Part shown: positions 6,567-29,042 of the stretch, piece after piece | How the letters are laid out: each line of letters begins with the position of its first letter | How positions within the stretch are numbered: position 1 is the first letter of the stretch | Assembly (NCBI GenBank): GCA_023512435.1 | Contig: JAILZP010000008.1 | Span: forward strand, 1 to 64,000 | DNA: 64,000 bases | From: Peptococcaceae bacterium | GTDB lineage: Bacteria; Bacillota; Desulfotomaculia; Desulfotomaculales; Desulfocucumaceae | Direction of reading: 5' to 3' | Translations under genes and position numbers: made by a program | Notes under the pieces: model-generated | Databases searched by the model: none | What the model saw: only the letters and a program-made list of their open reading frames with translations | Told to the model about the DNA's origin: nothing

Positions 6567-8456
6567 ATGAGCAGTTCTTTTCATAACTATGACTTTTTAT
6601 TGCTTAATGTGCCATTAATCAGGCCGGCATGGCCGGTTCCGGCTTTTAGCAGGATATTGCCCAGGTTAAAATCAGAAGGTTTTGTGGGGGATTGGTGGGA
6701 CGAGAATGTAAAATTTTTTAGGTTTTATTATTCTGAAGAGAAACTCATATGGGCTTATCAGGTTGTTAAAGAAAGATTATCTTGCACTGATAATGTAGAT
6801 ACGGCAAAACATTTAATAAAAATTTTGGAGAAGCCCATAGATTTAATTGTGGAAAGTATAAAGCAGATATCAAGAGAAGAGATATTTTGCGATTTAAAGA
6901 GGTATAGGGAAGTTTTTTATAATGTTTTCTACGTTGCCTCTCAATTATTATCATATGCTTATGATATAATTTTTGACTGTAATCAGTTAATTTATAGATC
7001 GCCTATTAACCTTAAAGGTTATAACTTTCATAAAGCCAATGACGTAATCAAATTGGTAAACGGTGATTCAAAAAATATAAGCTATAATTTTTTTAAAGAG
7101 ATCACCTTGCCTGAAATACTGCAAGTGATGCCGAGGGTGATTGGGATTTCAATAAGTTCAGCATTTGAACTTGTTCCAGCCTTTACCCTGGCAAAACTTA
7201 TAAAGGAAGAAGTGGGCAACAAAGTTCACCTTGTTATGGGGGGCAACTTTTTGTCAAGAATTGAACATAGGTTTAGAAATACTGAAAGAGAAAAAGAAAA
7301 ATATATTGAATTCTGGAACTGGATGGATTCATATGTTATTTCAAAGGGAGATTTGGCCCTGGCAAAATTGATAAAAGCAGTCTTGTGTAAAGAGGGACTT
7401 GATTCTGTTCCAAATCTTGTTTATAAATTGCCGGATACTATCAGGGAAACCACATTCCAGTACGGGCCAGGTATTAATGAGCTTCCCCATACAGATTATG
7501 GGAGTATTCTGGACAATAAACATCTTTATTTTGTGCCTCCAAAGTTTCTGACTATTCCAATTTATGCGTCGATTGGTTGCTCTTATGCAAAATGTACTTT
7601 CTGTGCAATCGATAAAATGTCAGGAAATTATCATGCTAATTTGAGAGTAAAAAATAAAAATGGCGTGAAAGTTTTGGTTGGGAATGAGGAAGAGTTTGAT
7701 TTCTATAGAAAGCCTGAAAAAGTATATGATGAAATAGTTGCATTGAAGAAAAAACATAATATTAATTTTTTTTCGTTTAATGATGAGACAGCAGATATTG
7801 ATTTTCTTCTTGATTTTTGTGATGAAGTTATTAAAAATAAAGAAGAGATTTATTGGCAGGCTTTTGTAAGACTGGAAAATAAGTTGGCCAAGCCGGAAGT
7901 TTGTGAAAAATTATATTTTGGCGGGTGCCGGTTGGTAAGAGTTGGTTTCGAATACTTTTCCCAAGAGAAGCTTAACGCGGTGAAGAAGGGATATTCTTTA
8001 AAGAAGCAGTATGACATAGTAAAAAATCTTAATAGTGCAGGAATATGGGTACATGCTTATTTTATGTTAAGCGGAGAAGATGATTTTCAACAGATCATGT
8101 CTTTTATTAATAATAATGATTACTTTGCCTTATTGCATTCACTTGAATTCTTCTCATTTGTTAAAGACAGACATTCCCTCGATATATTAGAAGGCTTGAA
8201 GTCAGGTAAATATAAGCATGAAGATGTCGACAGCCAATTTCCAGAATTTCGAATATGGTGCGATGAAAATATAAAAGCAAGAGAATTAGTTGTTGAAATT
8301 GACCAATTTTCCAGAAAGAACTTTCCTGTTTATAGTTTGGTATGTGAGCCATGTGAAGTGGCATATTTTGCACCTTTAAATTATATTCATGGATTGACTA
8401 AAATAATTGAAGAATCTAAAAAAATTATGAGAGGTGAGTGCATTAATGATAAATGA
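6567..8456 (+). CDS. B12-binding-like radical SAM protein
   Basis: This 629-residue enzyme binds a [4Fe-4S] cluster and S-adenosylmethionine. The cluster motif is C338-SYAK-C343-TF-C346, a CX4CX2C spacing instead of the usual CX3CX2C, as in some cobalamin-type radical SAM proteins. The N-terminal half (about 1-300) resembles a B12-binding region (IGISISSAFELVPAFTLAK; LVMGGNF). Residues 330-560 are the radical SAM barrel (FSFNDET; VRVGFEYFS). It resembles enzymes that modify peptides or lipids, but the substrate is unknown. The gene is strikingly A+T-rich relative to its neighbours, suggesting transfer. Its stop overlaps the next gene's start (ATG at 8446), so the two are coupled. Confidence 0.85.
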   Translation: MSSSFHNYDFLLLNVPLIRPAWPVPAFSRILPRLKSEGFVGDWWDENVKFFRFYYSEEKLIWAYQVVKERLSCTDNVDTAKHLIKILEKPIDLIVESIKQISREEIFCDLKRYREVFYNVFYVASQLLSYAYDIIFDCNQLIYRSPINLKGYNFHKANDVIKLVNGDSKNISYNFFKEITLPEILQVMPRVIGISISSAFELVPAFTLAKLIKEEVGNKVHLVMGGNFLSRIEHRFRNTEREKEKYIEFWNWMDSYVISKGDLALAKLIKAVLCKEGLDSVPNLVYKLPDTIRETTFQYGPGINELPHTDYGSILDNKHLYFVPPKFLTIPIYASIGCSYAKCTFCAIDKMSGNYHANLRVKNKNGVKVLVGNEEEFDFYRKPEKVYDEIVALKKKHNINFFSFNDETADIDFLLDFCDEVIKNKEEIYWQAFVRLENKLAKPEVCEKLYFGGCRLVRVGFEYFSQEKLNAVKKGYSLKKQYDIVKNLNSAGIWVHAYFMLSGEDDFQQIMSFINNNDYFALLHSLEFFSFVKDRHSLDILEGLKSGKYKHEDVDSQFPEFRIWCDENIKARELVVEIDQFSRKNFPVYSLVCEPCEVAYFAPLNYIHGLTKIIEESKKIMRGECINDK

Positions 8457-9721: not shown

Positions 9722-10453
9722 TTATTTTCCAAGAAGACCGAAGGCCAGCATCTTCCGGCGGACGAAGGCCAGCTGCGACTGCAGGGGCAGCTGCATGGGG
9801 CAGTTGTCATCGCAGGCCATCAGGGCCATGCAGCCGAAGGCGCCCTCGTCCGATCCGATGACGTCGAAGTACTGCTGCGGCGTTCTTTCGTCCCTGGGAT
9901 CCACCATGAAGCGGGCCACCCGGTTGATCCCGGCGGCGCCCAGGAAGTCCTCCCTGATGTTGGCCGTGACGCAGCCGGCGATGCAGCAGCCGCACTCGAT
10001 GCACCGCTCGGCCTCGTATATTTCCAGGGCGACCCGGTTGTCCATCCTTTCCTCGACGGCGTCAGGGTCGAATTTTTTATCGGTGTGAATCCAGGCCTCG
10101 GTTCTCAATTGCAGTTGCCGGAACCAGGTGCCGGTGTCCACCGACAGGTCCCCGATCAGCTTGAAGACCGGGAGCGGCATCAGGGTAATGGTTCCCTTCA
10201 GGTCGCCGGTCAGGGTCTTGCAGGCCAACCGCGGCCGGCCGTTTATGATCATGGCGCAGGACCCGCAGATGGCGGCCCGGCAGACGAAGTCGAACATCAG
10301 GGAGGGGTCCAGATCCTCGCGGATTTTGTTCAGCGCCGTGAAAATGGTCATGCCCGGCACTTCTTCAATGACGTAATCCTGCATGAAGGGCTTTTTTTCC
10401 GGCGTGTTGGGGTTGTACCTGAAGATACTGAATTTACGCTGCTTGGTGCTCAT
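9722..10453 (-). CDS. frdB: fumarate reductase/succinate dehydrogenase iron-sulfur subunit
   Basis: This is the electron-transfer subunit of a membrane-bound succinate:quinone oxidoreductase, on the cytoplasmic face. The [2Fe-2S] ligands are Cys58, Cys63, Cys66 and Cys78. The C-terminal ferredoxin domain has CIECGCCIAGC (151-161) and CMALMACDDNCP (208-219) for the [4Fe-4S] and [3Fe-4S] clusters. The ATG at 10453 with AAGGAGGG is used; an in-frame extension to 10483 lacks a ribosome-binding site. It is the last gene of the C-A-B operon. In syntrophs this complex oxidises succinate to fumarate by reverse electron transport; the direction cannot be read from sequence. Confidence 0.93.
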   Translation of the reverse strand: MSTKQRKFSIFRYNPNTPEKKPFMQDYVIEEVPGMTIFTALNKIREDLDPSLMFDFVCRAAICGSCAMIINGRPRLACKTLTGDLKGTITLMPLPVFKLIGDLSVDTGTWFRQLQLRTEAWIHTDKKFDPDAVEERMDNRVALEIYEAERCIECGCCIAGCVTANIREDFLGAAGINRVARFMVDPRDERTPQQYFDVIGSDEGAFGCMALMACDDNCPMQLPLQSQLAFVRRKMLAFGLLGK

Positions 10454-10532
10454 TTTGCCCTCCTTCAAATGGGGACATTCCACCGGTTCCCCCAGATTTG
10501 TGATCAGTCAGAAAGAGGAGGCGTGTCCCCTT

Positions 10533-12371
10533 TCATTGTCCGTTCGCCTTATTTCCGCCCGTTGAAGCGGCCGAGGACTCGCCGTAGCCGCGGTCCCCCG
10601 GAGGCAGTTCGGTTATTTTCACCGGCTCGTACCTGAGTTCGGGCAGGTCGGCGCCTTCCTTCCAGTAGGCCAGGGTGCGTTTCAGCCAGTTAACGTCATC
10701 CCGCTTGGGATAGTCTTCCCTGGCGTGGCTGCCGCGGCTTTCGGTACGCGTCAGGGCTCCGTATGAAATGCACAGGGCCAGCCGCACCATCCCCGGCATG
10801 CGCAGGGAAGTGGTCAGTTCCGGGCTGGCCCATTTTCCGTCGGACCGCAGCCCGATTTTCTGCGCCCTCTCGTGCAGTTCCTGGAACTTGGCCACCGCCT
10901 TCTGCAGGTCCGGGCCGTTTCTGAAAATGCCCACGTAGTCCATCAGGGTCTGCTCCATTTCCCTCCGGATCTGGTAGACGTTTTCCTTGCCCAGCCGGCC
11001 CGCGATCAGGTCGTTGATGCGTTCCTGCTGTTTCCTGGCGAACCCCTGCACCAGGCTGTGGGAATAATTCAGCACGGCGTCCCGGGCGTATTCGGCCACC
11101 TTTCGGCCCACCACCCAGCCGCTGACGATGGTCTCGGCCAGGGAATTGCCTCCCAGGCGGTTGAACCCGTGCAGGTCCCAGCAGGCCGCCTCGCCCACCG
11201 CGAAGAGGCCTTTCAATCCGTAGGCCGCCCCGTCGATGTTGGTCCTCACCCCGCCCATGCTGTAGTGCTGGGTGGGCCGCACCGGGATCAGGTCTTTCAC
11301 CGGGTCGATGCCGTTGAAGTTCATGCAGATGTTTTTGATTTCCCGAAGGTTCGTATTTATGTGCTTGGCCCCCAGGTGCCTGATATCCAGCCACAGGTGG
11401 GGCCCGTAGGGGCTGTCCACGCCGTAACCCTTCCGGATATGCTGGATCATCCGGCGGGACACCACGTCCCGGGAAGCCAGCTCTTTTTTCACGGGCTCGT
11501 AATCGGGCATGAAGCGGTGGAGGTTCTTGTCCAGCAGGTAACCGCCGTCACCCCGTGCACCCTCGGTGATCAGTATCCATACCGGGACCATGCCGGTCGG
11601 GTGAAACTGGACGGCCTCCATGTTGCCCAGGGGTACGATGCCTGTGTCCAGGGCGATGGACATGCCGGTGCCCTCGTTGATGATGGCGTTGGTGGAGGCG
11701 CCGTAGAGCCTGCCGTATCCCCCGGTGGCGATGACGGTGGCCCTGGCCAGGTAGATTCTCAGTTCACCGGTCCTCAGGCACCGGGCCACCACTCCCAGGC
11801 AGGTCTCCCCGTCGTGGATAATGGAAATGGCCTCGGTCCGGTCGTGGACGGTGATGCCCAGCTTGATCACCACGCTGTCCACGGTGTACTGCATGCTGTG
11901 CCCGGTGCCGTCGGCCGTGTAGCAGGTGCGCCACTTGGCGGTTCCTCCGAAGTCCCGGGCCGTGATCAGGCCTTCTTTTTCCTTTTTGTCCTCGATTTCC
12001 CTTCCGTCCGGGAGCACCTTCCTGCCGGCCACCACGCGGCTCCAGGGAACCCCCCAGTGGGCCATCTGGCGGATAGCCTTGGGCACGGTTTCCACGAACA
12101 GGCGGGCCACATCCTGGTCGCAGCCCCAGTCGGAACCCTTGACGGTATCGGCGAAGTGGATGTCGGTGTTGTCTCCCTCGCCCATGGCGCAATTGCCCAG
12201 TGACGCCTGGCAGCCCCCCTGGGCGGCGGTGCTGTGCGAACGCCGGGGCGGCACGAGGCTCAGGATGATTACGTCCAGGCCGCGGGACGCCGCTTCTATG
12301 GCCGCCCTTTCACCGGCAAGGCCGGCCCCGGCCACCAGTACATCCGTGACAATGACAGTGTAATTCATCAT
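10533..12371 (-). CDS. frdA: fumarate reductase/succinate dehydrogenase flavoprotein subunit
   Basis: This catalytic FAD subunit interconverts succinate and fumarate. The 612-residue chain begins with a dinucleotide-binding GAGLAG, then HSTAAQGG (the covalent-FAD histidine region) and a capping domain with QFHPTG and EGARGDGGYLLD, and ends in a helical domain. ATG at 12371 is preceded by GGGAGGTG and overlaps the cytochrome b stop by 4 bp (ATGA), indicating coupling. The C-terminal tail after about residue 590 is low-complexity (SSAASTGGNKANGQ). Together with the neighbouring cytochrome b it resembles the Wolinella-type dihaem quinol:fumarate reductase. Confidence 0.94.
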   Translation of the reverse strand: MMNYTVIVTDVLVAGAGLAGERAAIEAASRGLDVIILSLVPPRRSHSTAAQGGCQASLGNCAMGEGDNTDIHFADTVKGSDWGCDQDVARLFVETVPKAIRQMAHWGVPWSRVVAGRKVLPDGREIEDKKEKEGLITARDFGGTAKWRTCYTADGTGHSMQYTVDSVVIKLGITVHDRTEAISIIHDGETCLGVVARCLRTGELRIYLARATVIATGGYGRLYGASTNAIINEGTGMSIALDTGIVPLGNMEAVQFHPTGMVPVWILITEGARGDGGYLLDKNLHRFMPDYEPVKKELASRDVVSRRMIQHIRKGYGVDSPYGPHLWLDIRHLGAKHINTNLREIKNICMNFNGIDPVKDLIPVRPTQHYSMGGVRTNIDGAAYGLKGLFAVGEAACWDLHGFNRLGGNSLAETIVSGWVVGRKVAEYARDAVLNYSHSLVQGFARKQQERINDLIAGRLGKENVYQIRREMEQTLMDYVGIFRNGPDLQKAVAKFQELHERAQKIGLRSDGKWASPELTTSLRMPGMVRLALCISYGALTRTESRGSHAREDYPKRDDVNWLKRTLAYWKEGADLPELRYEPVKITELPPGDRGYGESSAASTGGNKANGQ

Positions 12372-13003
12372 ACCGCACCTCCCAGCTCGTACATCACCCA
12401 GAGGGCGGCCAGGCCCAGGGCCAGTATGACCGCGGTAATCATCTTGGTTACGTAGCCCAGGGGCTTTCTCGGAAACCAGCCCCACTTGACGAACTGGCGG
12501 TAGATGCCGAAGCCGGCGTGGTACTCGCCAAGCAGGAGCAGGACCAGGTAAAACCACCAGAAGGAGTGCATCCGGTCGGCGCTGGTCATCGCTCTGATCG
12601 GCCATCCGGTGATCACCATCCACATGTGGATGCTTCCCAGGGCAAAGATGGCGGCCCCGGTAATCACCTGGAACACCCAGATCCAGGTGTCGGTGCCCTT
12701 AAGCATCCTGGCGTGCCGCCAGATGATCTTTTGTTCCTGGTAGCGGGTGGGCAGCCTCCGGCCGGCGGCTAAAATATGCGTGACAAATACCAGGATAATG
12801 AAGGGTATCCCCACGTAGGACAGGTAATAGTCGTCCAGGAACTGGGAGAGGGTGTTGAAGGTCTGTTTGCCCAGAAGGATGGTGGCCACGAAGATCATGT
12901 GCGTCCACAGGAACCCCACCAGCGTTACGCCGGTCAGCAGTTCCACCAGGTCGTAGTAGAGTTCGGCCCTGGGGTTTCTGGTCAATAGTTTTTGTGCCTG
13001 CAT
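12368..13003 (-). CDS. frdC: fumarate reductase/succinate dehydrogenase cytochrome b subunit
   Basis: This 211-residue integral membrane anchor has five hydrophobic segments (about 20-45, 68-90, 108-130, 150-170 and 185-208). Histidines placed for two haem b groups are seen in FLWTHMIF, FVTHILA, LGSIHMW and LLGEYHAGFG. It carries electrons between the iron-sulfur subunit and menaquinone. A single larger anchor rather than two small ones places it in the type B (dihaem) family, which couples the otherwise uphill succinate/menaquinone reaction to the membrane potential. ATG at 13003 follows AAAGGAG. It is the first gene of the operon, behind a sigma-54 promoter. Confidence 0.92.
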   Translation of the reverse strand: MQAQKLLTRNPRAELYYDLVELLTGVTLVGFLWTHMIFVATILLGKQTFNTLSQFLDDYYLSYVGIPFIILVFVTHILAAGRRLPTRYQEQKIIWRHARMLKGTDTWIWVFQVITGAAIFALGSIHMWMVITGWPIRAMTSADRMHSFWWFYLVLLLLGEYHAGFGIYRQFVKWGWFPRKPLGYVTKMITAVILALGLAALWVMYELGGAV

Positions 13004-13089: not shown

Positions 13090-13106
13090 CGCAAGATTGG
13101 TGCCAG
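13090..13106 (-). promoter_or_regulatory. sigma-54 promoter for the frd operon
   Basis: Read on the minus strand, CTGGCACCAATCTTGCG matches the -24/-12 consensus, with GG and GC ten bases apart, about 90 bp before the frdC start. Upstream (13131-13163) TTGAAAAAATACAG faces CTGCATTTTTCAA, and TTGAA-N9-TTCAA occurs at 13235-13253; both are candidate activator sites. Confidence 0.75.
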
Positions 13107-13842: not shown

Positions 13843-14625
13843 ATGGGCTTCAACTTTGAAAAGCTGGTGGTGGAGAAGGAAAACGGCATTGTGGTGGCTG
13901 CCATCAACCACCCGCCGGCCAATGCCATGGCCCAGGGAGTGCTGCGGGACCTGAACCAGTTGCTGGATGACTGCCTGGAAGACGAAAGTGTCAGGGTGAT
14001 CATCATTACCGGCACCGGTGAAAAGCTTTTCTGTGCCGGGGCGGACATCAGCGAATTCGCCGGCATCCAGGCCGGAAACGCGCCCAAATACAGCGGCAAC
14101 GACATCTACTTCAAGATTGAGAACTATCCCAAGGTGGTTATCGCCGCCCTGCAGGGAAGCGCCTACGGCGGCGGTCTCGAGCTGGCCTGCGCCTGCCACC
14201 TGAGGATCATGGCGGACAGTGCCAAGGTGGGGCTGCCCGAGGTCAAACTGGGGATTATTCCGGGATGGGGCGGCACCCAGCGCCTGCCCAGGTACATCGG
14301 AAAGACCAGGGCCTTGGAAATGATCCTTACCGGGGAGCCCATCACCGCCCAGGAGGCTCTGAGTTACGGCCTGGTGAACAGGGTGGCGCCGGCCGGATCG
14401 GTGCTGGAAGAAGCCAAAGCCCTGGCCAAAAAACTGGCGGCGGGAGCTCCCATTGCCCAGCGGGAAATCCTCAGGGCCGTCACCAGGGGACTGGAAACAA
14501 CCCTGGAAGAGGGGGTATACAAAATCGAGGCGGCCGGTAGTGCCGCGGTTTTCGCCAGCGAGGACGCCAGGGAGGGGGCCGTGGCCTTTTTCCAGAAGAG
14601 GCCGCCCAACTTCAAGGGAAGATAA
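13843..14625 (+). CDS. enoyl-CoA hydratase/crotonase family protein
   Basis: This 260-residue crotonase most likely hydrates trans-2-enoyl-CoA (for example crotonyl-CoA) to 3-hydroxyacyl-CoA. Both catalytic glutamates of classical enoyl-CoA hydratases are present, in [14 protein letters not shown] and [19 protein letters not shown], and the oxyanion-hole segment CAGADISEF is intact. ATG at 13843 follows AAGGGAGGAG. It lies directly upstream of the abfD-like genes and the 3-hydroxyacyl-CoA dehydrogenase, fitting a crotonyl-CoA route. A terminator-like hairpin separates it from abfD, so it is probably a separate transcription unit. No sigma-54 promoter with correct spacing was found for it. Confidence 0.9.
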
Positions 14626-14766: not shown

Positions 14767-14783
14767 TTGGTACAGAGATTGCT
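14767..14783 (+). promoter_or_regulatory. sigma-54 promoter for the abfD-like operon
   Basis: TTGGTACAGAGATTGCT has GG at 14769-14770 and GC at 14781-14782, ten bases apart. It lies 65 bp before the first abfD-like gene, leaving a leader of roughly 50 bases. An inverted repeat TTAAC-N6-GTTAA lies further upstream near 14646-14661 and could bind the activator. Confidence 0.75.
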
Positions 14784-14847: not shown

Positions 14848-16272
14848 TTGCGCACAGCCCAACAGTACCTCGAAAGTCTCCGTAATATGAAGCCCAATGT
14901 TTACATGAACGGCCAGATCATCCAGAGGGACGATCCCCGGCTGATGGGGGGCATAAATGTAATTTCAACAACCTTTGATTTTGCCGCTGACCCCGGTTAT
15001 GCCGGCCTGGTGACCGCCAAGTCCCACCTCACCGGGAAGACCATCAACCGTTTCACCCATGTTCACCAGAGCGTGGACGACTTGCTGAAGAAGCAGGAAA
15101 TGACCCGCTTCCTTTGCCAGCAGGTGGGGGGCTGCATCCAGCGGTGCATGGGGATTGACGCCACCAACGCCCTCTCGGTGGTGACGAAGGACTGTGACAA
15201 CGCGCTCGGCACCGATTATCACCAGAGATTTCTGAAGTGGCTGGAATACTTCCAGGAGAACGACCTGGTGGGGTGCTGCGCCCAGACGGACGTCAAAGGC
15301 GACCGGTCAAAGCGGCCCCACGAGCAGGTGGACCCGGACCTTTACGTCAGGATAGTGGAAAAGCGGGACGACGGGATTGTCGTGCGGGGAGCCAAAAACC
15401 ACATTACCATCGCTCCCTACGCCGAAGAAATTATCGTGGTTCCCACCAGGATGCTTACCGAGAAGGACGCCGACTACGCCGTGGCCTTCGCCATTCCGGC
15501 AGACACCCCGGGAGTCAAGCTGGTTACCCGGGCCACCATGCCCCGGGAGCGCAAGTACATAAAAACCGGCAGAGTGATAGGGTCGGCCGACTGTTTCGTG
15601 ATTTTCGACGATGTATTCGTACCCAGGGAAAGGGTGTTTCTGTGCGGGGAGCACATGTTCGGCGGCATGCTGGCCCTGATGTTCGCCCTTTACCACCGGC
15701 ACAGCTACACCGGCTGCAAGCCGGCCACCACCGACGTGATCATGGGTCAGGCCGCCCTGGTGGCGGAATACAACGGCATCGAGAAGGCTCCCCACGTGCG
15801 GGACAAACTGGCGGACATGGTGGCGGTGGCCGAACTGGTATACGGCGCCGGCATCGCTTCGGCGGTCAAGGCCAAGCGGGCCGCCTCCGGGACCTACGTG
15901 CCGGACGTGGTCTTCGCCAATGTGGCCCGCTACCACGCCGGGGTAAAACTGTACCACGAATTCGAGACACTGGCCGACCTGGCGGGCGGCCTGCCGGCCA
16001 CCCTGCCGCCGGAGGAGGATTTCTACAGCCCGGAAACCGGTCCGCTGCTGCACAAGTACATCATGCGCAATCCCAAAATCAGCGCCGAGAACCAGCACCG
16101 CCTTTTCCGCCTGCTAAGCGACACCCTGTGCTCGGCCCACTCCGGAGTGATGCAGGTGGCCGGGCTGCACGGCGGAGGGTCGCCGATCATGGAGAAAATA
16201 GCCATTATGGGCACTTACGACATGGAATCCAAGAAGAAACTGGCCAAATATCTGGCCGGAATAAAAGACTAA
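14848..16272 (+). CDS. 4-hydroxybutyryl-CoA dehydratase/vinylacetyl-CoA isomerase family protein, copy 1
   Basis: This is a [4Fe-4S]- and FAD-containing homologue of AbfD, 474 residues against about 490 for the clostridial enzyme. The four cluster ligands are conserved (Cys96 and Cys100 in GGCIQRCMGIDA; His283 and Cys290 in YHRHSYTGCK), as are equivalents of the catalytic Tyr, Lys and Thr190. Glu257 is Asp and Glu455 is Ala (VAGLHGGGSP against TESMHGAGSP in AbfD, recalled from memory). The reaction may therefore be isomerisation or dehydration of a different acyl-CoA. The TTG start follows AGAAGGAGGAG. It is first in a sigma-54 operon with a near-identical second copy 26 bp downstream. Confidence 0.85.
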   Translation: MRTAQQYLESLRNMKPNVYMNGQIIQRDDPRLMGGINVISTTFDFAADPGYAGLVTAKSHLTGKTINRFTHVHQSVDDLLKKQEMTRFLCQQVGGCIQRCMGIDATNALSVVTKDCDNALGTDYHQRFLKWLEYFQENDLVGCCAQTDVKGDRSKRPHEQVDPDLYVRIVEKRDDGIVVRGAKNHITIAPYAEEIIVVPTRMLTEKDADYAVAFAIPADTPGVKLVTRATMPRERKYIKTGRVIGSADCFVIFDDVFVPRERVFLCGEHMFGGMLALMFALYHRHSYTGCKPATTDVIMGQAALVAEYNGIEKAPHVRDKLADMVAVAELVYGAGIASAVKAKRAASGTYVPDVVFANVARYHAGVKLYHEFETLADLAGGLPATLPPEEDFYSPETGPLLHKYIMRNPKISAENQHRLFRLLSDTLCSAHSGVMQVAGLHGGGSPIMEKIAIMGTYDMESKKKLAKYLAGIKD

Positions 16273-16298
16273 AATCATATTAAACCGGAGGTTTCTTT

Positions 16299-17723
16299 AT
16301 GCGTACCGTTCAGCAGTATATCGACAAGCTTCGTTCAATGAGGCCCAACGTCTACATGGGAGGCAGGCTGGTGCCCAGGGACGACCCCCGCTTCATGGGA
16401 GGCATCCGCACCATCGCCACCACCATTGAGTGCGGCCTGGACCCGCAATACTCGGACCTGATGACCGCCAGGTCCCACCTGACGGGCAAGACCATCAACC
16501 GATACACCCACGTTCACCAGAGCGTGGAGGACCTCCTGAAAAAGCAGGAGATGACCCGGTTCCTGTGCCGGAAGGTGGGCGGCTGCATCGACCGCTGCAT
16601 GGGAATTGACGCCACCAACGCCCTTTCGGTGGTGACCAAGGATTGCGACAATGCGCACGGGACCGATTATCACCAGAGATTTCTGAAGTGGCTGGAGTAC
16701 TTCCAGGAAAACGACCTGGTGGCCGCCTGCGCCCAGACCGACGTCAAGGGTGACCGGTCAAAGAGGCCCCATGAGCAGGCAGATCCGGACCTGTACGTTC
16801 ACGTGGTGGAAAAGCGGGACGACGGGATCATCGTCCGGGGCGCCAAGAACCACATTTCAATCGTTCCCTACGCCGACGAAATCATCGTGGTGCCCACCAG
16901 GGCCCTGACCCAGAAGGACGCCGACTACGCCGTGGCATTCGCCATTCCGGCCGACGCCGAGGGGGTCAAGCTGGTCACCAGGGCCACCGGAACCAGGGAG
17001 CGGAAAATTCTCACCGGCAGTGTGGGCCAGTACCAGGTGGACTGCTACGTGATCTTCGAGGACACTTTCGTGCCCTGGGAAAGGGTGTTCCTTTGCGGGG
17101 AGCACATGTTCGGCGGCATGCTGGCCCTGATGTTCGCCCTCTACCACCGGCACAGCTACACCGGCTGCAAGCCGGCGGTTTCGGACTGCCTGATGGGCCA
17201 GGCGGCCCTGGTGGCGGAGTACAACGGGATTGAAAAGGCGCACCACGTCAGGGAAAAGCTGGCAGATTACGTGGCGGTGGCCGAGCTTGTTTACGGCGCC
17301 GGCATAGCTTCGGCGGTTAAGGCCAGGCGGGCGGCCTCGGGCACCTATGTCCCGGACCCCGTTTATGTGAACGTGGCCCGCTACCACGCCGGGGTGAACC
17401 TTTACCACGAGTTCGAGATGCTGGCCGACCTGTCCGGCGGCCTCCCGGCAACGCTGCCGCCGGAGGAGGATTTCTTCAGCCCGGAAACCGGCCCGCTGCT
17501 GCACAAGTATATCATGCGCAACCCCAAAATAAGCGCCGAGAACCAGCACCGCCTGTTCCGCCTGCTGAGCGACACCCTTTGTTCGGCCATGGGCGGAGTG
17601 GCCCAGGTGGGCGGGATGCACGGCGGGGGGTCGCCGGTGATGGAGAAGATTGGCATCATGGCGGCCTACGACATTGAGGCCAGGAAGAGGCTGGCCAAGC
17701 AGCTGGCCGGGATCAGGGATTAA
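16299..17723 (+). CDS. 4-hydroxybutyryl-CoA dehydratase/vinylacetyl-CoA isomerase family protein, copy 2
   Basis: This tandem paralogue of the preceding gene has the same length of 474 residues and long identical stretches at both protein and DNA level, indicating duplication. Cluster ligands Cys96, Cys100, His283 and Cys290 are retained. The Thr190 equivalent is Ser (NHISIVPYA), Glu257 is Asp and Glu455 is Gly (VGGMHGGGSP). The two copies differ in active-site-facing positions, so they may form a hetero-oligomer or accept different acyl-CoAs. The start is ATG after CCGGAGG. The following gene is a 3-hydroxyacyl-CoA dehydrogenase. Confidence 0.85.
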   Translation: MRTVQQYIDKLRSMRPNVYMGGRLVPRDDPRFMGGIRTIATTIECGLDPQYSDLMTARSHLTGKTINRYTHVHQSVEDLLKKQEMTRFLCRKVGGCIDRCMGIDATNALSVVTKDCDNAHGTDYHQRFLKWLEYFQENDLVAACAQTDVKGDRSKRPHEQADPDLYVHVVEKRDDGIIVRGAKNHISIVPYADEIIVVPTRALTQKDADYAVAFAIPADAEGVKLVTRATGTRERKILTGSVGQYQVDCYVIFEDTFVPWERVFLCGEHMFGGMLALMFALYHRHSYTGCKPAVSDCLMGQAALVAEYNGIEKAHHVREKLADYVAVAELVYGAGIASAVKARRAASGTYVPDPVYVNVARYHAGVNLYHEFEMLADLSGGLPATLPPEEDFFSPETGPLLHKYIMRNPKISAENQHRLFRLLSDTLCSAMGGVAQVGGMHGGGSPVMEKIGIMAAYDIEARKRLAKQLAGIRD

Positions 17724-17773: not shown

Positions 17774-18664
17774 TTGACTGCCCGGGAAATTAAAAACATA
17801 ACGGTGATTGGCGCCGGCACCATGGGACACCAGATAGCCCTGGCGGCCGCCCTGTCGGGATACTCGGTCACGTGTGCGGACGTAAGCGGCGAACAGCTGG
17901 CCAGGGCCCGGAAATTTGTGGACACCTACCTGCCGCAAAGGGTGGCCCGGGGCAAGCTGTCCCCCGGGGAGGCAGCCGAGGCCGGGAAAAACCTGGTTTT
18001 TTCCCAGGACGTGGACGAATCGGCGGCCCGGGCCGATCTGGTCATTGAATCGGTGCCGGAGATTCTTGAATTGAAGCGCCGGGTGTTTTCCCGCCTGGAT
18101 AAAGTCTGCCCGGACCACGCCATCCTGGTCACCAACAGCTCATTTATAGTATCCTCCAGGATTGCCGACGCCACCGGCAGGCCGGACAGGGTCTGCAACA
18201 TGCACTTTTTTAATCCCCCGCTGCACATGAAGCCGGTGGAGGTGGTCAAGGGGCCCCACACTTCGGAAGAAACCGCCGCCGCCGTGGTGGGGGTATGCAG
18301 AAGAATGGGCAAGGTGCCGTTCCTGCTGCACAAGGAGGTAAAAGGCTTTCTGATCAACAGGGTCCTTTCGGCGACCCACAGGGAAGCCCTTTTTCTGTAC
18401 GATATGGGTGTGGCCTCCATCGAGGACATAGACAAAGCCATCCAGTACGGGCTGGGCCACACCATACCGCCCTTTCGCCAGATGGACCTGATCGGCCTCG
18501 ACCTGATCCTGAACATAGACATGGAGCACTACCGGGAAACGGGGGACCCGGTTCACAAGCCGTCGCCGGTGCTGGTGGAAAAGGTGGTCAGGGGCGAACT
18601 GGGCCGCAAGACCGGAAAGGGTTTTTACGACTACTCGGACATGCTGGCGGGGCGCGGATACTAG
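17774..18664 (+). CDS. 3-hydroxybutyryl-CoA dehydrogenase
   Basis: This NAD(P)-dependent oxidoreductase interconverts 3-hydroxyacyl-CoA and 3-oxoacyl-CoA. The 296-residue chain has the Rossmann motif VIGAGTMGHQIA near the N-terminus, ESVPE, the catalytic-histidine segment NMHFFNPPLHMKPVEVV and the helical C-terminal dimerisation domain. The start is TTG, ten bases after GGGAGG. It lies 50 bp after the second abfD-like gene in the same operon and 18 bp before the sigma-54 activator, consistent with a beta-oxidation-like step after hydration of crotonyl-CoA or a homologue. Confidence 0.92.
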   Translation: MTAREIKNITVIGAGTMGHQIALAAALSGYSVTCADVSGEQLARARKFVDTYLPQRVARGKLSPGEAAEAGKNLVFSQDVDESAARADLVIESVPEILELKRRVFSRLDKVCPDHAILVTNSSFIVSSRIADATGRPDRVCNMHFFNPPLHMKPVEVVKGPHTSEETAAAVVGVCRRMGKVPFLLHKEVKGFLINRVLSATHREALFLYDMGVASIEDIDKAIQYGLGHTIPPFRQMDLIGLDLILNIDMEHYRETGDPVHKPSPVLVEKVVRGELGRKTGKGFYDYSDMLAGRGY

Positions 18665-18682: not shown

Positions 18683-20611
18683 GTGGCCAGGAAGATCAGG
18701 CTGGGGGTTTTCTCACCGTACCCCGAATTTACGGAACTGGCCGGGGAAATCGTCAGGGAATTCGATAACGCGGAAATCATCGTAGAGGAAAAAATTCTGG
18801 ATGACGCCGTGGAGGCGGCCAGGGATTGGGCGGAGAGAGACCTGGTGGAGGCCGTCGTGGCCAGGAATCCCACCGCCCAGATGGTGGCCGGCAGGGTGGA
18901 CCTGCCGGTGTCCGCAGTGGAGATTACCGACTTCGACATAATCAAGACTCTTCACCGGGCCAGGAGTCTTTACGGGGAGTCCATGGCCTTCATCACCTAC
19001 GACCACAGGCCGGCCGAGTATGATTTCGATCTTTTCAAGGAGATTTTGGGATTTGATTTCAGGGTTTATCATTACCGGGACAACCAGGGCCTGTATGACA
19101 GCATCGACCTTGCCTGCCGGGAAGGGATAAAGACTCTGGTGGCCACCGGCGCCTGCATTGTCAACAAGGTGAAGGCGTGGAACGTCAACGGGATTTTTGT
19201 GGCCAGCGGCAAGGCCCCTGTATATGAGGCCTTTGCCAACGCCATCAGAATGGCTGAACTCCGGCGGGAGAACAGGCACTTCATCAACCGCCTGGGTTCC
19301 ATCCTCAACAGCATCAGCGACGGAGTCCTGGCCCTGGACGAGGCGGGAAAAGTGTTCTTTTGCAACCCGCTGGCGGAAAGGCTCCTGGGTATCAAGTCCA
19401 GGGAAGTGCTGGGCAAAAAAGTGGATGTGCTGCTTAAGCACGAGGCCCTTAGGAAGATATACCGGGACGGGCAGAGAGCAAACGGAGACCTGGTCAGGCT
19501 GGATGCCGGAAAAGAGCTGCTGGTGAACCGCGTCACTTTTAACGTGGGCGGGGGTCAGTGCCTGGTTATAAATTTCCAGGTGGTCAGCGCCATCGTGCAG
19601 ATGGAGGAAAAAATAAGGCAGGAACTGTACGCCAAAGGCCTGGTGGCCAAGTACAGCTTCAGCGACATATGCGGGGACAGCAGGTTGATCAGGGAAACCA
19701 TCGATCAGGCCAGGAAATTTGCCAGATCCCATTCCACCGTGCTTATCTCGGGTGAAAGCGGCACAGGCAAGGAGCTGTTTGCCCAGAGCATGCACAATGA
19801 AAGCGACAGGCGCAACGGCCCCTTTGTTGCCGTTAACTGCGCCGCTCTCCCCGAAACTCTTTTGGAAAGCGAACTTTTCGGCTATGAGGAAGGCGCTTTC
19901 ACCGGGGCCAGGCGGGGGGGCAAGCGGGGGCTGTTTGAGATTGCCCACGGGGGGACCATATTTTTGGACGAAATAGGGGAATTGGGCCCCCAGCTCCAGG
20001 CCAGGATACTGCGGGTAATCCAGCAAAAGGAAGTCATGCGGGTGGGCGGGGGGCGGGTAATACCGGTGGATGTGAGGATCATCACGGCCACGAACCGCAA
20101 TTTGTTTGAAGCCGTGCAGAAGGGATCGTTCCGGGAGGACCTTTTCTACCGGCTGAATGTTCTTCCCCTTAAGGTGCCGCCATTGAGAAGGAGGCCGGAG
20201 GACATTCCGGTGCTTTTTAACCACTTCCTCAGGCGCCGGGGTGATAAAAGGGTTCCTTCCCAGTTCCCCCAGCATGTGACGGAGAAAATGAAGAGGTACT
20301 CCTGGCCAGGAAATGTCAGGGAGCTGGAGAACTTCGCGGAAAGGTACTGCGCTCTCGGAGAAGACGATTTTGAATATTTCAGCACCCTAAGGGGACTGAT
20401 CAGCCGGCTGTTCGGCGAGGATGGCGGGGAAAGGCCCACAAAACACAGGATTGTGGTGGAACTGGGCACCTTTGACCAGATAGAGAGCCAGATTATTGAG
20501 CAGCTGGCGTGCCTCTTTCCAAATTCCAAGGGCGACCTGGCCAAAGTGCTGGGCATCAGCCGGACAACCCTGTGGCGAAAGCTCAAGGCTTCGGGGGTTC
20601 AGATCAACTGA
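18683..20611 (+). CDS. sigma-54-dependent activator with PrpR-type sensor domain
   Basis: This 642-residue enhancer-binding protein starts with a PrpR N-terminal-like domain (about 1-185; it senses a small molecule such as 2-methylcitrate in PrpR). A PAS domain (about 200-310) and the AAA+ ATPase follow: Walker A GESGTGK from residue 357, the sigma-54-contacting GAFTGA at 404-409, and Walker B GGTIFLDEIGEL. A Fis-type helix-turn-helix (GDLAKVLGISRTTLWRKLK) ends the protein. The GTG start lies 18 bp after the dehydrogenase stop, so it is in the operon it probably activates. It is the only sigma-54 activator in the window, with six matching promoters within about 25 kb. Confidence 0.93.
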   Translation: MARKIRLGVFSPYPEFTELAGEIVREFDNAEIIVEEKILDDAVEAARDWAERDLVEAVVARNPTAQMVAGRVDLPVSAVEITDFDIIKTLHRARSLYGESMAFITYDHRPAEYDFDLFKEILGFDFRVYHYRDNQGLYDSIDLACREGIKTLVATGACIVNKVKAWNVNGIFVASGKAPVYEAFANAIRMAELRRENRHFINRLGSILNSISDGVLALDEAGKVFFCNPLAERLLGIKSREVLGKKVDVLLKHEALRKIYRDGQRANGDLVRLDAGKELLVNRVTFNVGGGQCLVINFQVVSAIVQMEEKIRQELYAKGLVAKYSFSDICGDSRLIRETIDQARKFARSHSTVLISGESGTGKELFAQSMHNESDRRNGPFVAVNCAALPETLLESELFGYEEGAFTGARRGGKRGLFEIAHGGTIFLDEIGELGPQLQARILRVIQQKEVMRVGGGRVIPVDVRIITATNRNLFEAVQKGSFREDLFYRLNVLPLKVPPLRRRPEDIPVLFNHFLRRRGDKRVPSQFPQHVTEKMKRYSWPGNVRELENFAERYCALGEDDFEYFSTLRGLISRLFGEDGGERPTKHRIVVELGTFDQIESQIIEQLACLFPNSKGDLAKVLGISRTTLWRKLKASGVQIN

Positions 20612-20720: not shown

Positions 20721-20737
20721 CTGGCATGTCCGTTGCA
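20721..20737 (+). promoter_or_regulatory. sigma-54 promoter for the acyl-CoA ligase
   Basis: CTGGCATGTCCGTTGCA is the best match to the sigma-54 consensus in the window (GG 20723-20724, GC 20735-20736). AAACA-N5-TGTTT (near 20645-20660) and ATGAA-CA-TTCAT (near 20667-20678) lie upstream as candidate activator sites. Confidence 0.8.
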
Positions 20738-20777: not shown

Positions 20778-22400
20778 ATGGACTTTCCCAGACCCTATCT
20801 GAAGGTGTATGAATCCGGTGGAGTGGACTGGGACGTAAAAATCGACCCCAAGCCCCTGCATACCCTGGTGTTTGAGTCCGCCAAGAAGTTTCCAGACAAG
20901 ACCGCCCTTATCTTTTACGGGCACAAGATAACCTTCGCCCAACTGGCGGGCTGTGTTACCCGGGCCGCCTCGGTTTTTCATGATCTGGGCCTGAAAAAAG
21001 GGGACAGGGTTTCAATCATGCTGCCCAACTGCCCCGATTTTGTCATTGCCTACTACGCCGTCCTCAGCCTGGGCGGGATCGTGGTCAACACCAATCCCAT
21101 GTATGTTGAGCGGGAGATCGAACACCAGGTCAATGATTCCGGGTCCAGGATGATTTTGGTTTACGCGGATATCTACCCCAGGGTTAAAAACGTCCGGGCC
21201 AACACGCCCCTGGAGAAGGTGATCCTGACGGGATTTGCCGGGAAGCCGGAAACCATGCCCGACGATACCCTCTGGTTCCCGGACTTTTACGCGGCCGATC
21301 GCAAGCCGGCGCCGCCGGTGGAGATTGACCCGCTGGAAGACCTGGCGGTTTTGCAGTACACAGGGGGCACCACGGGGGTCTCCAAGGGGGCCATGCTCAC
21401 CCACGCCAACCTGTATTCCAACGCCATGCAGACTAATTACTTCTTTATCGGGGAGGAAAAGAAGGAACTTATTCTTACCGTACTCCCGCTGTTCCACGTT
21501 TACGGCATGTCGTCGTGCATGAACCTGGCCATGGCCAGCGGGAAGACCATTATCCTGGTACCCAGGTTCGTGCCCGAAGAAATATGTAAGATCATCAGTG
21601 AGTACAAACCGACATTTTTCCCAGGCGTGCCCACCATGTTCGTGGCCATAAGAAACCACCCGGCCTTCAAGGACCCGCACAACGTGATGGTTTACAACTC
21701 AGGGGCGGCTCCCCTGCCGGTGGATGTCTGGCAAAGCTACAACAAGCTGTTTGAGGGGAGCAACACCGTGATGAGCGAGGGTTACGGCCTGTCCGAGGCT
21801 TCGCCCACCACTCACTGCAACCCCATCTTCGGCGAGACCAAGGTGGGCAGCATAGGAATTCCGTTCCCCCTGACAGACGCCGCCGTGGTGGACGCCGAGA
21901 CCGGGACCAGGGTGATGCCCGTGGGAGAGGTGGGAGAGTTAATCATCAGGGGGCCCCAGGTGATGAAGGGGTACTGGAACATGCCCGACCAGAGCGCCAA
22001 GACCCTTCGCAACGGGTGGCTGTACACCGGCGACATGGCCAGGATGGACGGGGACGGGTACTTCTATATTGTTGACCGGAAGAAGGACATGATCCTGGCC
22101 GGAGGTTACAATATTTACCCCCGGGAGGTGGAAGAGGTTCTCTTTACCCACCCGAAGGTACAGGAGGCCGTTGTGGCCGGGATACCCGACGCCTACCGGG
22201 GAGAGACAGTAAAGGCCTACGTGGTCCTTAAAGAAGGGGAGACCGCCACCGAGCAGGAAATCATCGACTATTGCCGGGAAAAGATGGCTGCCTTTAAAGC
22301 TCCCAAAACGGTGGAATTCCGGAAGGAACTGCCCAAGTCGGCGGTGGGCAAGCTGCTGCGCAGGATACTGGTGGAAGAGGAGAAAAAGAAAATGTCATAA
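20778..22400 (+). CDS. acyl-CoA ligase (AMP-forming)
   Basis: This 540-residue member of the AMP-forming acyl-CoA synthetase (ANL) family activates a carboxylic acid with ATP and CoA. The phosphate-binding loop YTGGTTGVSKG starts at residue 194. EGYGLSEASP, YTGDMARMDGDG and the catalytic lysine region KSAVGKLLRR near the C-terminus are all present. It looks most like medium- or long-chain fatty acid ligases, but the acid is unknown. ATG at 20778 follows CGGAGGTG. It is transcribed alone from a sigma-54 promoter and ends at a strong terminator. Confidence 0.92.
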   Translation: MDFPRPYLKVYESGGVDWDVKIDPKPLHTLVFESAKKFPDKTALIFYGHKITFAQLAGCVTRAASVFHDLGLKKGDRVSIMLPNCPDFVIAYYAVLSLGGIVVNTNPMYVEREIEHQVNDSGSRMILVYADIYPRVKNVRANTPLEKVILTGFAGKPETMPDDTLWFPDFYAADRKPAPPVEIDPLEDLAVLQYTGGTTGVSKGAMLTHANLYSNAMQTNYFFIGEEKKELILTVLPLFHVYGMSSCMNLAMASGKTIILVPRFVPEEICKIISEYKPTFFPGVPTMFVAIRNHPAFKDPHNVMVYNSGAAPLPVDVWQSYNKLFEGSNTVMSEGYGLSEASPTTHCNPIFGETKVGSIGIPFPLTDAAVVDAETGTRVMPVGEVGELIIRGPQVMKGYWNMPDQSAKTLRNGWLYTGDMARMDGDGYFYIVDRKKDMILAGGYNIYPREVEEVLFTHPKVQEAVVAGIPDAYRGETVKAYVVLKEGETATEQEIIDYCREKMAAFKAPKTVEFRKELPKSAVGKLLRRILVEEEKKKMS

Positions 22401-25975: not shown

Positions 25976-27268
25976 CTATTCTTCAACAGTCTTGGGTATA
26001 AAGACGTATTGCGAACCGGCTGGCAACTGGGGAACCAGCTTTTTGAATTCATCCTCGGTCTTCAGGTGCCAGATGAGGGACACGGGCGGGGTCAGCTTGC
26101 CGTCCTTCACCCTCTGAACCGAAGCGACGGGAATCATCCTTCCGTTGTCGGTGATGCCGAGGTAGTGGACGGGGAAATCATCGCCGGACATCGGGAATGC
26201 CTTGGAAAAAGCTGCCCTGATGGCAACCGGGTCATCCACCGTGCCCGCCGCCGACATGGCCCTGGTAAGAGCGTAGAGAGCCATATAATTAAGCGGGTTT
26301 TCGGAGGTGGTCACCGGCTTGTTGTACTGCTGCCTGAACTTCTGGTCAAACCCCGGTGTCGCCTTGTAGGGATAGGATTGCACGGCCGAAACTCCCATGG
26401 AGCCTTCCAACAGGCTGTAGCCCTTGAGGACATGGGCAATGAAATCGATCTTGGCCTGGTCCACCAGGATGAACTTGCCCTTGAAGCCCAGGTTGCGGGC
26501 CTGTTCGATCACCAGGGCGGTGGGGACCGAGGGGCCGCCGATGAGCATAACATCGGGCTTGGCCGCGAGACAGGCAGTAATCATGGCCGAGAAATCGGTT
26601 TCGGTGTAATAGTTTGCGGGTTTGTCCGCCACTATTTTGCCGCCTGCTTTTTCCCACTCACTCTTGAAGGCAGCCCTCCACTCGTCGCCGTACGCGCCCA
26701 GGGTAACCAGCATGGCTGCGTTTTTGGCGCCTTCTTTAATGAATTCCTGGACAAATGACTTGCAGTATACCGTAAACGGCGGCGGCACCGCCACAACCAG
26801 TTTATTGTTCATTTGAACGACCTTGGGCGTGCTGGTATAGGCCATTATGATGAACTCATTGCCCTTTTCCTGGTTGATCTGCATCATCGGGGCAATGGCG
26901 TTGAACACCGGGTTGAATATGGCCGGCGTCTTGAACTGGTTGCGGAACCTGCGGGCGTTGTTCACCGCGTTGGTGGGGTCGCCCATGTCGTCTAGTTTTT
27001 CCAGCCTGATGGTGTACTTCTGGTTGCCGACGGTGAATCCTCCGGCAGCATTTATCTCCTTGACGGCCATGTCAATACCGTTAAGACAGTCCTGGCCGTA
27101 TTCCGCCGCCGGGCCGCTGAGCGGGCCGGTGTAACCGATTACCACTTCTTTGGGCTTGTCGCCTGACCCGCCGCCGGCCTGCTTGTCGTCCTTTTTCGAC
27201 CCGCATCCGGCGGTTACCAGTATTAATCCCAGAACAAGGACCAGAAAAACTCCGTAAAGACGTTTCAT
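25976..27268 (-). CDS. livK: Liv-type ABC transporter substrate-binding lipoprotein, copy 2
   Basis: This 430-residue extracellular binding protein is anchored by a lipoprotein signal peptide (MKRLYGVFLVLVLGLILVTAGC, lipobox VTAGC). The mature part is a type I periplasmic-binding fold (VVIGYTGPLSGPAAEYGQDC; AEYG and NNARRFRNQFK). ATG at 27268. It is about two-thirds identical by eye to the next upstream gene at 27762, so the pair arose by duplication. Aromatic or acidic ligands are common for this subfamily; the actual ligand is unknown. Confidence 0.92.
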   Translation of the reverse strand: MKRLYGVFLVLVLGLILVTAGCGSKKDDKQAGGGSGDKPKEVVIGYTGPLSGPAAEYGQDCLNGIDMAVKEINAAGGFTVGNQKYTIRLEKLDDMGDPTNAVNNARRFRNQFKTPAIFNPVFNAIAPMMQINQEKGNEFIIMAYTSTPKVVQMNNKLVVAVPPPFTVYCKSFVQEFIKEGAKNAAMLVTLGAYGDEWRAAFKSEWEKAGGKIVADKPANYYTETDFSAMITACLAAKPDVMLIGGPSVPTALVIEQARNLGFKGKFILVDQAKIDFIAHVLKGYSLLEGSMGVSAVQSYPYKATPGFDQKFRQQYNKPVTTSENPLNYMALYALTRAMSAAGTVDDPVAIRAAFSKAFPMSGDDFPVHYLGITDNGRMIPVASVQRVKDGKLTPPVSLIWHLKTEDEFKKLVPQLPAGSQYVFIPKTVEE

Positions 27269-27477
27269 TAAAGAAACTCACTCCCCTTTTGATTATTCAG
27301 GTGAAAAATATTACGTCGGAACTGCTCCCTCAAACACCTCCCCGGTCAACTAATATGGCCGCCATAGCCTCTAACCGGCACATAGTGTTTTGCGACGGTC
27401 ATGTGACTGATTGCCTCCTTAAGATTCATAAAAGAGTTTTTGTTAGCAATTGTCAGAATACTTTTACTCAAATATAT

Positions 27478-27494
27478 AGCATAAGACATGCCAT
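27478..27494 (-). promoter_or_regulatory. sigma-54 promoter for livK2-livHMGF
   Basis: On the minus strand ATGGCATGTCTTATGCT has GG and GC ten bases apart. An inverted repeat AAAGG-N11-CCTTT lies 40-60 bp upstream (27534-27554), at the same distance as the similar repeat before livK1, and AACAGCATTTAATC is shared between the two promoters. Confidence 0.72.
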
Positions 27495-27703
27495 GAGGAG
27501 GATTGATTCCCAAACAGCATTTAATCGGCTACGAAAGGTTTTTTTTAAGCCTTTAAATGACATCGCTCAACTGGATTTTCTTTATTTTGACGGATGAGGG
27601 ATTGCCGGGCGGCTTAAAGGCTCAGCGCGGCATGTTTATTTACTGAACGGGCATGTTACTGTTTTGCAACTCCCGGCTAAAGAACAAGGCTGGATGGAAA
27701 TGC

Positions 27704-27733
27704 GAGCGGAAGCCTGCATATCAGCTTCCGCTC
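27704..27733 (-). terminator. hairpin after livK1
   Basis: GAGCGGAAGC-CTGCATATCA-GCTTCCGCTC is a perfect 10-bp stem about 30 bp downstream of the livK1 stop. There is no U-run, so it may stabilise the transcript or act with a termination factor. Confidence 0.55.
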
Positions 27734-27761
27734 CCCGGGTCACGGTCTTTTTGTAAAGTGC

Positions 27762-29042
27762 CTATTCCTCCACCTTCAGATATTTAACTGTTCCGCCGGT
27801 TATTTTGACCTGGGCCTTCAGCTTTTCAAAATCGGCCTGGTCATTCTGCCAGTACGCGTACAGGTCGGCGGGCGAATACTTGCCGTCCTTGATCATCTGG
27901 ACCGAGGCCATGCAGTGCATGCGGCCCTTGTCCGAGATATCGAAGAACTCGCTGGGGAACTTATCCCCGGTCAGGGGGAACGCCTTGGGAAAGGCCGCCC
28001 GGATAGCCGGGGCGTCCTCCACCGATCCGGCCGCGGCCATGGCCCTGGCCAGGGCGTGCATGGCACAGTAGTTGAGCGCGGACTCCCAGGTGTTCATCCT
28101 CTTGTATGCTTCAGAGTATTTTTTGTCGAACGCCGGGGCCGTCGGGGTCGGGATCTGGGCCACCGCGGCCACGCCGATGGTGTTTTCCATGAGCTTGATG
28201 CCCTTGAGGATGTTTTTGTCGATGTAGTCCATCTTGGCCTGGTCCACCAGGATAAAGCCCCCCTTGAAGCCCAGGCCCCGGGCCTGCTCGATGACCAGGG
28301 CGGTGGAGGCCGAGGGTCCGCCGATCAGGAGGACGTCGGGCTGAGTGGCCAGCACCGCGGTGAGCTGTGATGAGAAGTCGGTTTCGGTATAGTAATTGGC
28401 GGGCTTATCCGCGGTAATCACGCCGCCCTTCCTGGTCCAGTGATCCTTGAAGGCCTGTCTCCACTCGTCGCCGTAGGCCCCCAGGGTCACCACCAAGCCG
28501 GCCTTCTTCCAGCCCTGGGACATGGCCAGTTCGGTAAAGGATTGCACGTAGGCTGTAAACGGGGGAGGAATGGCCACCACCAGCTTGTTGTTGAGCTGAA
28601 CCACCTTTGGGGTGCTGGTGTAGGCCATAATTATGAACTCATTGCCCTTTTCCTGGTTGATCTGCATCATCGGGGCAATGGTGTTGAAAACAGGGTTGAA
28701 TACCGCCGGCGCCTTGAACTGGTTGCGCAACCTGCGGGCATTGTTCACGGCGTTGGTGGGGTCGGCCATGTCGTCCAGCTTTTCCAGCCTGAACATATAT
28801 TTTTTGCCGCCCACCGTAATGCCGCCGGCGCTGTTTATTTCGTTAACGGCCATGTCAATTCCGTTTAAGCAGTCCTGGCCGTATTCGGCGGCGGGGCCGC
28901 TGAGGGGGCCGGTATAGCCGATGACCACTTCAATGGGTTTTTCGCCTGCCTGGGGGGCCTGTTCCTTTTTGGATCCGCATCCTGCGGCCGTCAGGATCAC
29001 TCCCAGGATCAGCACCGGGAAAACGACTAAAATACGTTTCAT
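27762..29042 (-). CDS. livK: Liv-type ABC transporter substrate-binding lipoprotein, copy 1
   Basis: This 426-residue paralogue of the downstream binding protein shares the N-terminal mature sequence VVIGYTGPLSGPAAEYGQDC. Its signal peptide ends ILTAAGC (lipobox). The two differ mainly in the C-terminal lobe, which suggests different ligands delivered to one permease. ATG at 29042. It is followed by a hairpin and has its own sigma-54 promoter with the same layout as that of copy 2. Confidence 0.92.
   Translation of the reverse strand: MKRILVVFPVLILGVILTAAGCGSKKEQAPQAGEKPIEVVIGYTGPLSGPAAEYGQDCLNGIDMAVNEINSAGGITVGGKKYMFRLEKLDDMADPTNAVNNARRLRNQFKAPAVFNPVFNTIAPMMQINQEKGNEFIIMAYTSTPKVVQLNNKLVVAIPPPFTAYVQSFTELAMSQGWKKAGLVVTLGAYGDEWRQAFKDHWTRKGGVITADKPANYYTETDFSSQLTAVLATQPDVLLIGGPSASTALVIEQARGLGFKGGFILVDQAKMDYIDKNILKGIKLMENTIGVAAVAQIPTPTAPAFDKKYSEAYKRMNTWESALNYCAMHALARAMAAAGSVEDAPAIRAAFPKAFPLTGDKFPSEFFDISDKGRMHCMASVQMIKDGKYSPADLYAYWQNDQADFEKLKAQVKITGGTVKYLKVEE

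Follow-up and report, generated by a model that had tools for sequence, protein, structure and literature searches.

The window, by which we mean the whole 64,000-nucleotide stretch of Peptococcaceae DNA analyzed here, contains two consecutive genes, 26 bp apart, whose products resemble the 4-hydroxybutyryl-CoA dehydratase AbfD. Copy 1 begins with a TTG start codon, directly preceded by a purine-rich ribosome-binding site. The genes lie in the order hydratase, copy 1, copy 2, dehydrogenase, sigma-54 activator, ligase (Table 1), and this order is identical at the corresponding locus (L065) of Desulfovirgula sp. Tomsk_2_57_21 (G001), which belongs to the same genus.

Table 1. Features of the AbfD-like locus, in window coordinates; residues carry AbfD numbering
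Feature	Position	Strand	Remarks
FrdCAB-type fumarate reductase/succinate dehydrogenase	9722..13003	-	divergent; NCBIfam PRK08626 and PRK13552 above cut-off
sigma-54-like site	13090-13105	-	5' of frdC; also in the sister genome
enoyl-CoA hydratase (crotonase)	13843..14625	+	5' of copy 1
sigma-54 -24/-12 site TGGTACAGAGATTGCT	14768..14783	+	64 bp 5' of copy 1; identical in L065
AbfD-like copy 1	14848..16272	+	474 aa; Pfam HpaB_N/HpaB; AF2 model matches 1u8v
codons in copy 1	D257 15589; H294 15700; A455 16159; E466 16192		
AbfD-like copy 2	16299..17723	+	474 aa; 82% identity with copy 1
codons in copy 2	Q101D 16590; T190S 16857; D257 17040; G455 17610; E466 17643		
3-hydroxyacyl-CoA dehydrogenase	17774..18664	+	present in 9/11 group-I loci
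PrpR_N-PAS-sigma54 activator-HTH_8 regulator	18683..20611	+	
sigma-54-like site TGGCATGTCCGTTGCA	20722..20737	+	5' of ligase
AMP-forming acyl-CoA ligase, FadD type	20778..22400	+	likely start MDFPRPYLK; ORF from 20733

Family assignment and operon context

Both products combine the HpaB_N and HpaB domains with the CxxxC and HxxxxxxC cluster ligands that define the AbfD family in the broad sense. In a phmmer search of the PDB sequences, the best match of each is 1u8v, AbfD from C. aminobutyricum (E 3.2e-121 for copy 1 and 6.9e-113 for copy 2), followed by 6vjr, the 4HBD of N. maritimus, and then by HpaB-type monooxygenases. An AF2 model of copy 1 (pLDDT 94.3) predicts the same fold, with TM scores of 0.95 to 1u8v_A and 0.94 to 6vjr, proteins of the same length, as against 0.83-0.88 to the nearest HpaB monooxygenases. 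Given these E values and the TM score to 1u8v, the likeness to AbfD is not due to chance.

The names commonly given to members of this family are 4-hydroxyphenylacetate 3-hydroxylase family protein and 4HBD, and automatic annotation would make the pair HpaB-type FAD monooxygenases acting on phenols. The Pfam domains fit this assignment, as do the overall fold and an Asp at position 257 shared with HpaB (4-hydroxyphenylacetate 3-monooxygenase oxygenase, PDB 2yyg); the NCBIfam HpaB-1 model also matches, but at 190.3 and 185.4 bits it falls far under its cut-off of 480.2 bits. HpaB, however, has no cluster ligands and is about 25% identical to the pair, which is nearer to AbfD in both sequence and fold, and the operon includes no flavin reductase gene. 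A monooxygenase function is accordingly highly improbable.

The genes around the pair recur in part in other genera. Hydratase orthologs (73-76% identity) are found close to abfD-like genes of the same group (group I) in other genera, and ligase orthologs (73-75% identity) close to those at loci L067 and L068. Acyl-CoA dehydrogenase, thiolase, and DUF362 protein genes recur at the group-I loci of other genera. The DUF362 protein (≈430 residues; L066:12078-13373, cluster 10, 11 members) occurs near both group-I and group-V abfD-like genes and is possibly an accessory or electron-transfer protein.

Three sigma-54 matches in the window, against 2.27 expected, are at chance level, and the evidence for these sites lies in their position and conservation instead. 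Perfect-consensus sites precede the orthologs in L053 and L116, and additional matches are found 5' of those in L117, L068, L074, and L143. Together, the conserved gene set and the placement of the sigma-54 sites make it likely that the locus is an inducible catabolic operon in which the AbfD-like step yields an enoyl-CoA. FrdCAB, which contains the sole close FRD/SDH flavoprotein found in the window genome, is a possible member of the same regulon. As to the substrate, the neighboring genes lead to a beta-oxidation-type pathway and allow no single acid to be named.

Other genes of the window flank this region. Downstream of the operon (25976-29042, minus strand), two branched-chain-amino-acid-type substrate-binding proteins, 65% identical, adjoin LivH/LivM/LivG/LivF-like genes. 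At 6567-8456 (plus strand), a gene for a 629-residue radical SAM protein with no NCBIfam match is followed by one for an M24 peptidase-like protein; neither gene is called in the sister locus.

An AbfD subfamily without Glu455

We numbered residues by alignment to the 1u8v sequence. Both copies keep the [4Fe-4S] ligands of AbfD (C99, C103, H292, and C299, here C96, C100, H283, and C290), together with Y296 (Y287 here), K300 (K291 here), H458, and a hydroxyl residue at 190. The residue set of AbfD proper (E257, E455, Y296, and T190) is broken at two positions in each copy: E257 is replaced by Asp248 in both, and E455 by Ala438 in copy 1 and Gly438 in copy 2. T190 corresponds to Thr187 in copy 1 and Ser187 in copy 2. 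A sequence-only reading of this DNA had given the same ligands and the same three substitutions and proves to have been right. It did not include two further changes: copy 2 alone has Asp98 for AbfD Q101, and both copies have Gly for A460.

We drew relatives from 60 near genomes, from the order (113 genomes), from the phylum (399), and from the phylum of an actinobacterial match (297). In the larger tree, for which we left out columns 257 and 453-460, the 66 sequences of the pair's subfamily form a clade of their own (SH-aLRT 100), while 1u8v, 6vjr, and the AbfD of the window genome fall in another, of 20 sequences; the pair thus falls outside the clade of characterized AbfD proteins. The copies bearing Ala or Gly at 455 do therefore group together, as the sequence-only reading had proposed to check. 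No member of the 66 has an acid at position 455 (Gly in 30, Ala in 28, Ser in 8); position 257 is Asp in 41, Glu in 17, and His in 8, and position 190 is divided evenly between Thr and Ser (33 each). The Fe-S ligands, Y296, K300, and H458 are invariant (66/66), and so are E466, H294, E380, Q149, and G460, where AbfD has Q466, Q294, I380, M149, and A460. R370, a Lys in AbfD, is likewise invariant in the clade, and more than 20 diagnostic residues in all accompany the absence of E455 across it. Identity to AbfD is about 43-45% for subfamily members and about 39-43% in the comparison of the pair with 1u8v and 6vjr.

The pattern held in 17 actinobacterial members that we fetched once it had been fixed: all 17 have Ala, Gly, or Ser at 455 and E466, H294, E380, G460, and Q149. 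Position 101 is Ala in most of the 17 and is thus not strictly conserved. Over the combined set, A/G/S455, D/E/H257, Thr or Ser at 190, E466, the cluster ligands, Y296, and K300 are found in 83/83 sequences. Both window copies carry the residues by which we delimit the subfamily (Q149, H294, E380, G460, E466, and a non-acidic 455). By these sequence comparisons, the pair belongs to a distinct, widespread, and apparently uncharacterized AbfD subfamily marked by the motif HGGGSP and the absence of Glu455. Our literature search, which covered a minority of subscription journals, found no paper on AbfD-like proteins lacking E455.

These distributions change how the substitutions are to be read. 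The absent Glu455, first taken as a trait of the tandem, is a property of the entire subfamily, and a recent loss of this residue in the pair is ruled out. Position 257 retains its acid/base character, with Asp, Glu, or His in every member, and Ser190, which had been singled out as a change, is common in the subfamily. Because every member has an ionizable residue at 257 and a hydroxyl at 190, the carboxylate at 455 is the only group truly missing. The two glutamates had also been described as lost; that both positions differ stands, while the direction of change does not follow from the trees. In a mixture-model tree of 55 sequences that includes the HpaB outgroup, the canonical side (AbfD and minor groups) has support of 95/94.9 and the subfamily branch 53/53; since the HpaB branch is long (5.85) and the root placement weak or without support, the difference at 455 can be read as a loss here or as a gain in AbfD.

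A canonical AbfD is encoded elsewhere in the window genome, which has five family members in total. This protein (L045, contig 9) has E257, E455, A460, and Q466 and scores about 776 bits to 1u8v, as compared with 408 for copy 1. Its presence bears on whether copy 1 and copy 2 are ordinary 4-hydroxybutyryl-CoA dehydratases with tolerated substitutions, in an operon that turns 4-hydroxybutyrate into acetoacetyl-CoA. Ligase, AbfD-like protein, crotonase, and 3-hydroxyacyl-CoA dehydrogenase are exactly the four enzyme kinds that such a route needs, and the cluster ligands and Y296 are those of a dehydratase. Against this, the genome already has its canonical enzyme, E455 is missing throughout the subfamily along with the other diagnostic residues, the acyl-CoA dehydrogenase and thiolase genes of other group-I clusters suggest other acids, and the E455Q variant of AbfD is reportedly inactive. 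We consider this explanation distinctly unlikely, and the canonical AbfD supports the sequence-only reading, which had already doubted that the pair are 4-hydroxybutyryl-CoA dehydratases. Nor does the subfamily need a canonical AbfD partner, because genomes G014 and G022 have a single family match each.

Among the AbfD-like subgroups, group II loci (L048, L069, L099, L125-L127, L130, and L131) combine His257 with Ser455 in 8/8 cases, often beside genes for a family III CoA transferase, a thiolase, and indolepyruvate-oxidoreductase-like proteins. In two genomes, at L067:1-6280 and L050, a cassette of the corrinoid methyltransferase type, with MtrH-like, corrinoid protein, and activator-like genes, lies near E455-less abfD-like genes. 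On contig 2 of the window genome, a paralog (L046:4695-6134) has Y101, T257, C296, G455, and the motif TWHGAGSP; it is placed on the opposite strand within the series deoB, pyrimidine phosphorylase, [gene], dacF, spoIIAA, spoIIAB, sigF-like. This neighborhood is conserved in four genomes (also L059, L061, and L063) and contains no metabolic neighbors.

Divergence of the second copy

The tandem arrangement is found both in the window genome and in G001, at 93% and 91% identity, and the second assembly excludes an assembly artifact as its origin. Among the sampled group-I loci it is confined to this genus; the remaining group-I loci have one subfamily copy each, and orthologs elsewhere are mostly single-copy. 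The duplication thus appears to have originated within this genus, with the subfamily state still present in copy 1 at positions 101 and 190. Between the two genomes, the dN/dS ratio is 0.05 for copy 1 (dN 0.033, dS 0.65) and 0.07 for copy 2 (dN 0.044, dS 0.62), whereas copy 1 and copy 2 of the window differ from each other with a ratio of 0.19 (dN 0.132, dS 0.70). These values indicate that both copies have been maintained and that the proteins changed more quickly after duplication. The low ratios between genomes and the invariant ligands exclude a decaying gene or pseudoenzyme.

Thirteen positions that are invariant in the other group-I members are altered only in copy 2. Seven of them (101, 190, 192, 254, 256, 265, and 464) fall in active-site segments, which we picked ourselves from the alignment, against a background of 66/273 (P 0.018). 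This clustering favors functional divergence over decay, and, on the sequence evidence, the active site of copy 2 has probably been re-tuned toward a different specificity or rate.

Copy 1 and copy 2 might be obligate partners in a hetero-oligomer whose active sites they share, an arrangement compatible with either dehydration or isomerization. AbfD is a homotetramer, and joint assembly would suit two genes that lie 26 bp apart, recur as a tandem in two genomes, and are each under purifying selection. We find it doubtful, as other group-I loci manage with a single subfamily copy and most of the changes found in copy 2 alone are near the active site, with no interface pattern recognized.

An independent AbfD-like tandem occurs at L136:8072-11251 (G490), and Syntrophothermus sp. 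DTU052 (L014) has the same pair. The second copy of the L136 tandem lacks cluster ligands (V99, K299), and its residues at 296 and 300 are G and M.

Glu466 and the proposed chemistry

The retained residues suggest that the proton relay to FAD would be kept in kind, by an acid or His at 257 and a hydroxyl at 190; in AbfD, E257 is said to protonate FAD via T190, and E455 is reportedly the residue proposed to deprotonate Y296. The base for Tyr296 would thus be missing from the subfamily, and Glu466, on the next helix, may substitute for it. In the sequences that have Y296, Glu stands at one, and only one, of positions 455 and 466: E455 accompanies Q or M466 in 20/20 canonical sequences, and a non-acidic 455 accompanies E466 in 83/83. 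Sub-groups in which 296 is C, I, or H have no E466. The AF2 model places A438 of copy 1 in helix 430-441, three residues short of its end, and E449, the equivalent of E466, three residues into helix 446-456. The two positions are therefore symmetric about the turn between the helices, a predicted placement that makes their proximity plausible. Because the exchange falls on essentially a single branch, along with numerous further fixed substitutions, it does not amount to independent covariation; Glu466 is a candidate base in place of Glu455 on suggestive evidence only. The sequence-only reading had raised the case of a nearby glutamate replacing Glu455, and the invariant Glu466 may in part be such a residue.

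On balance, we lean toward a reading in which the pair carries out AbfD-class chemistry on an acyl-CoA other than 4-hydroxybutyryl-CoA and feeds the hydratase and dehydrogenase of its own operon, with Glu466 perhaps replacing Glu455 and copy 2 re-tuned. The CoA ligase of the operon would activate the acid. A substrate-induced flavin semiquinone and an allylic ketyl intermediate, with the cluster as Lewis acid, would then bring about dehydration of a 4-hydroxyacyl-CoA, Delta3-to-Delta2 isomerization of an enoyl-CoA, or both, and the 2-enoyl-CoA product would pass to the hydratase and on to the 3-hydroxyacyl-CoA dehydrogenase.

Loss of the tyrosine-deprotonating carboxylate could also spare isomerization alone, which would make the pair dedicated Delta3-Delta2 isomerases of vinylacetyl-CoA or longer 3-enoyl-CoAs with no dehydratase activity; the sequence-only reading had suggested isomerization of the vinylacetyl-CoA type. 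Some subfamily members (groups IVa and IVb) have OYE/2,4-dienoyl-CoA-reductase-like proteins and acyl-CoA dehydrogenases as neighbors, which would accord with such a role, but the window operon contains no OYE gene. Moreover, crotonase-fold isomerases manage without an Fe-S cluster, and retention of the ligands, Y296, and K300 in 83/83 sequences would then be hard to explain. A function restricted to isomerization is, in our estimation, unlikely.

A partial parallel to the preferred reading, AbfD-class chemistry on another acyl-CoA, is BbuA, the gamma-butyrobetainyl-CoA trimethylamine lyase, for which radical flavin chemistry that eliminates the C4 leaving group of an acyl-CoA has been proposed (PMC8364193). 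BbuA is only about 10% identical to 4HBD (PMC8364193) and is no homolog at the level used in this work.

If the tyrosine-deprotonating carboxylate has moved from 455 to 466, the subfamily would represent a second route of radical generation in FAD/[4Fe-4S] dehydratases. We can extend this to a large subfamily, with sub-groups having Asp, Glu, or His at 257, through which 4-hydroxy or 3-enoyl acids of a chain length other than C4 enter anaerobic beta-oxidation and which includes, in this genus, a duplicated and functionally split pair; the extended proposal is tentative and, taken as a whole, rather improbable. Should the relocation be true, nature has already run, in these sequences, the experiment that asks how the radical enzyme starts up, and with the tandem pair two versions of the active site can be compared cleanly inside a single operon. 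In genomes, AbfD also serves to mark 4-hydroxybutyrate pathways, those of autotrophic carbon fixation among them; with about 43-45% identity to it and the cluster ligands retained, subfamily members can be miscounted as AbfD. A residue key, E455 with Q466 in AbfD as opposed to A, G, or S455 with E466 in the subfamily, would tell the two apart.
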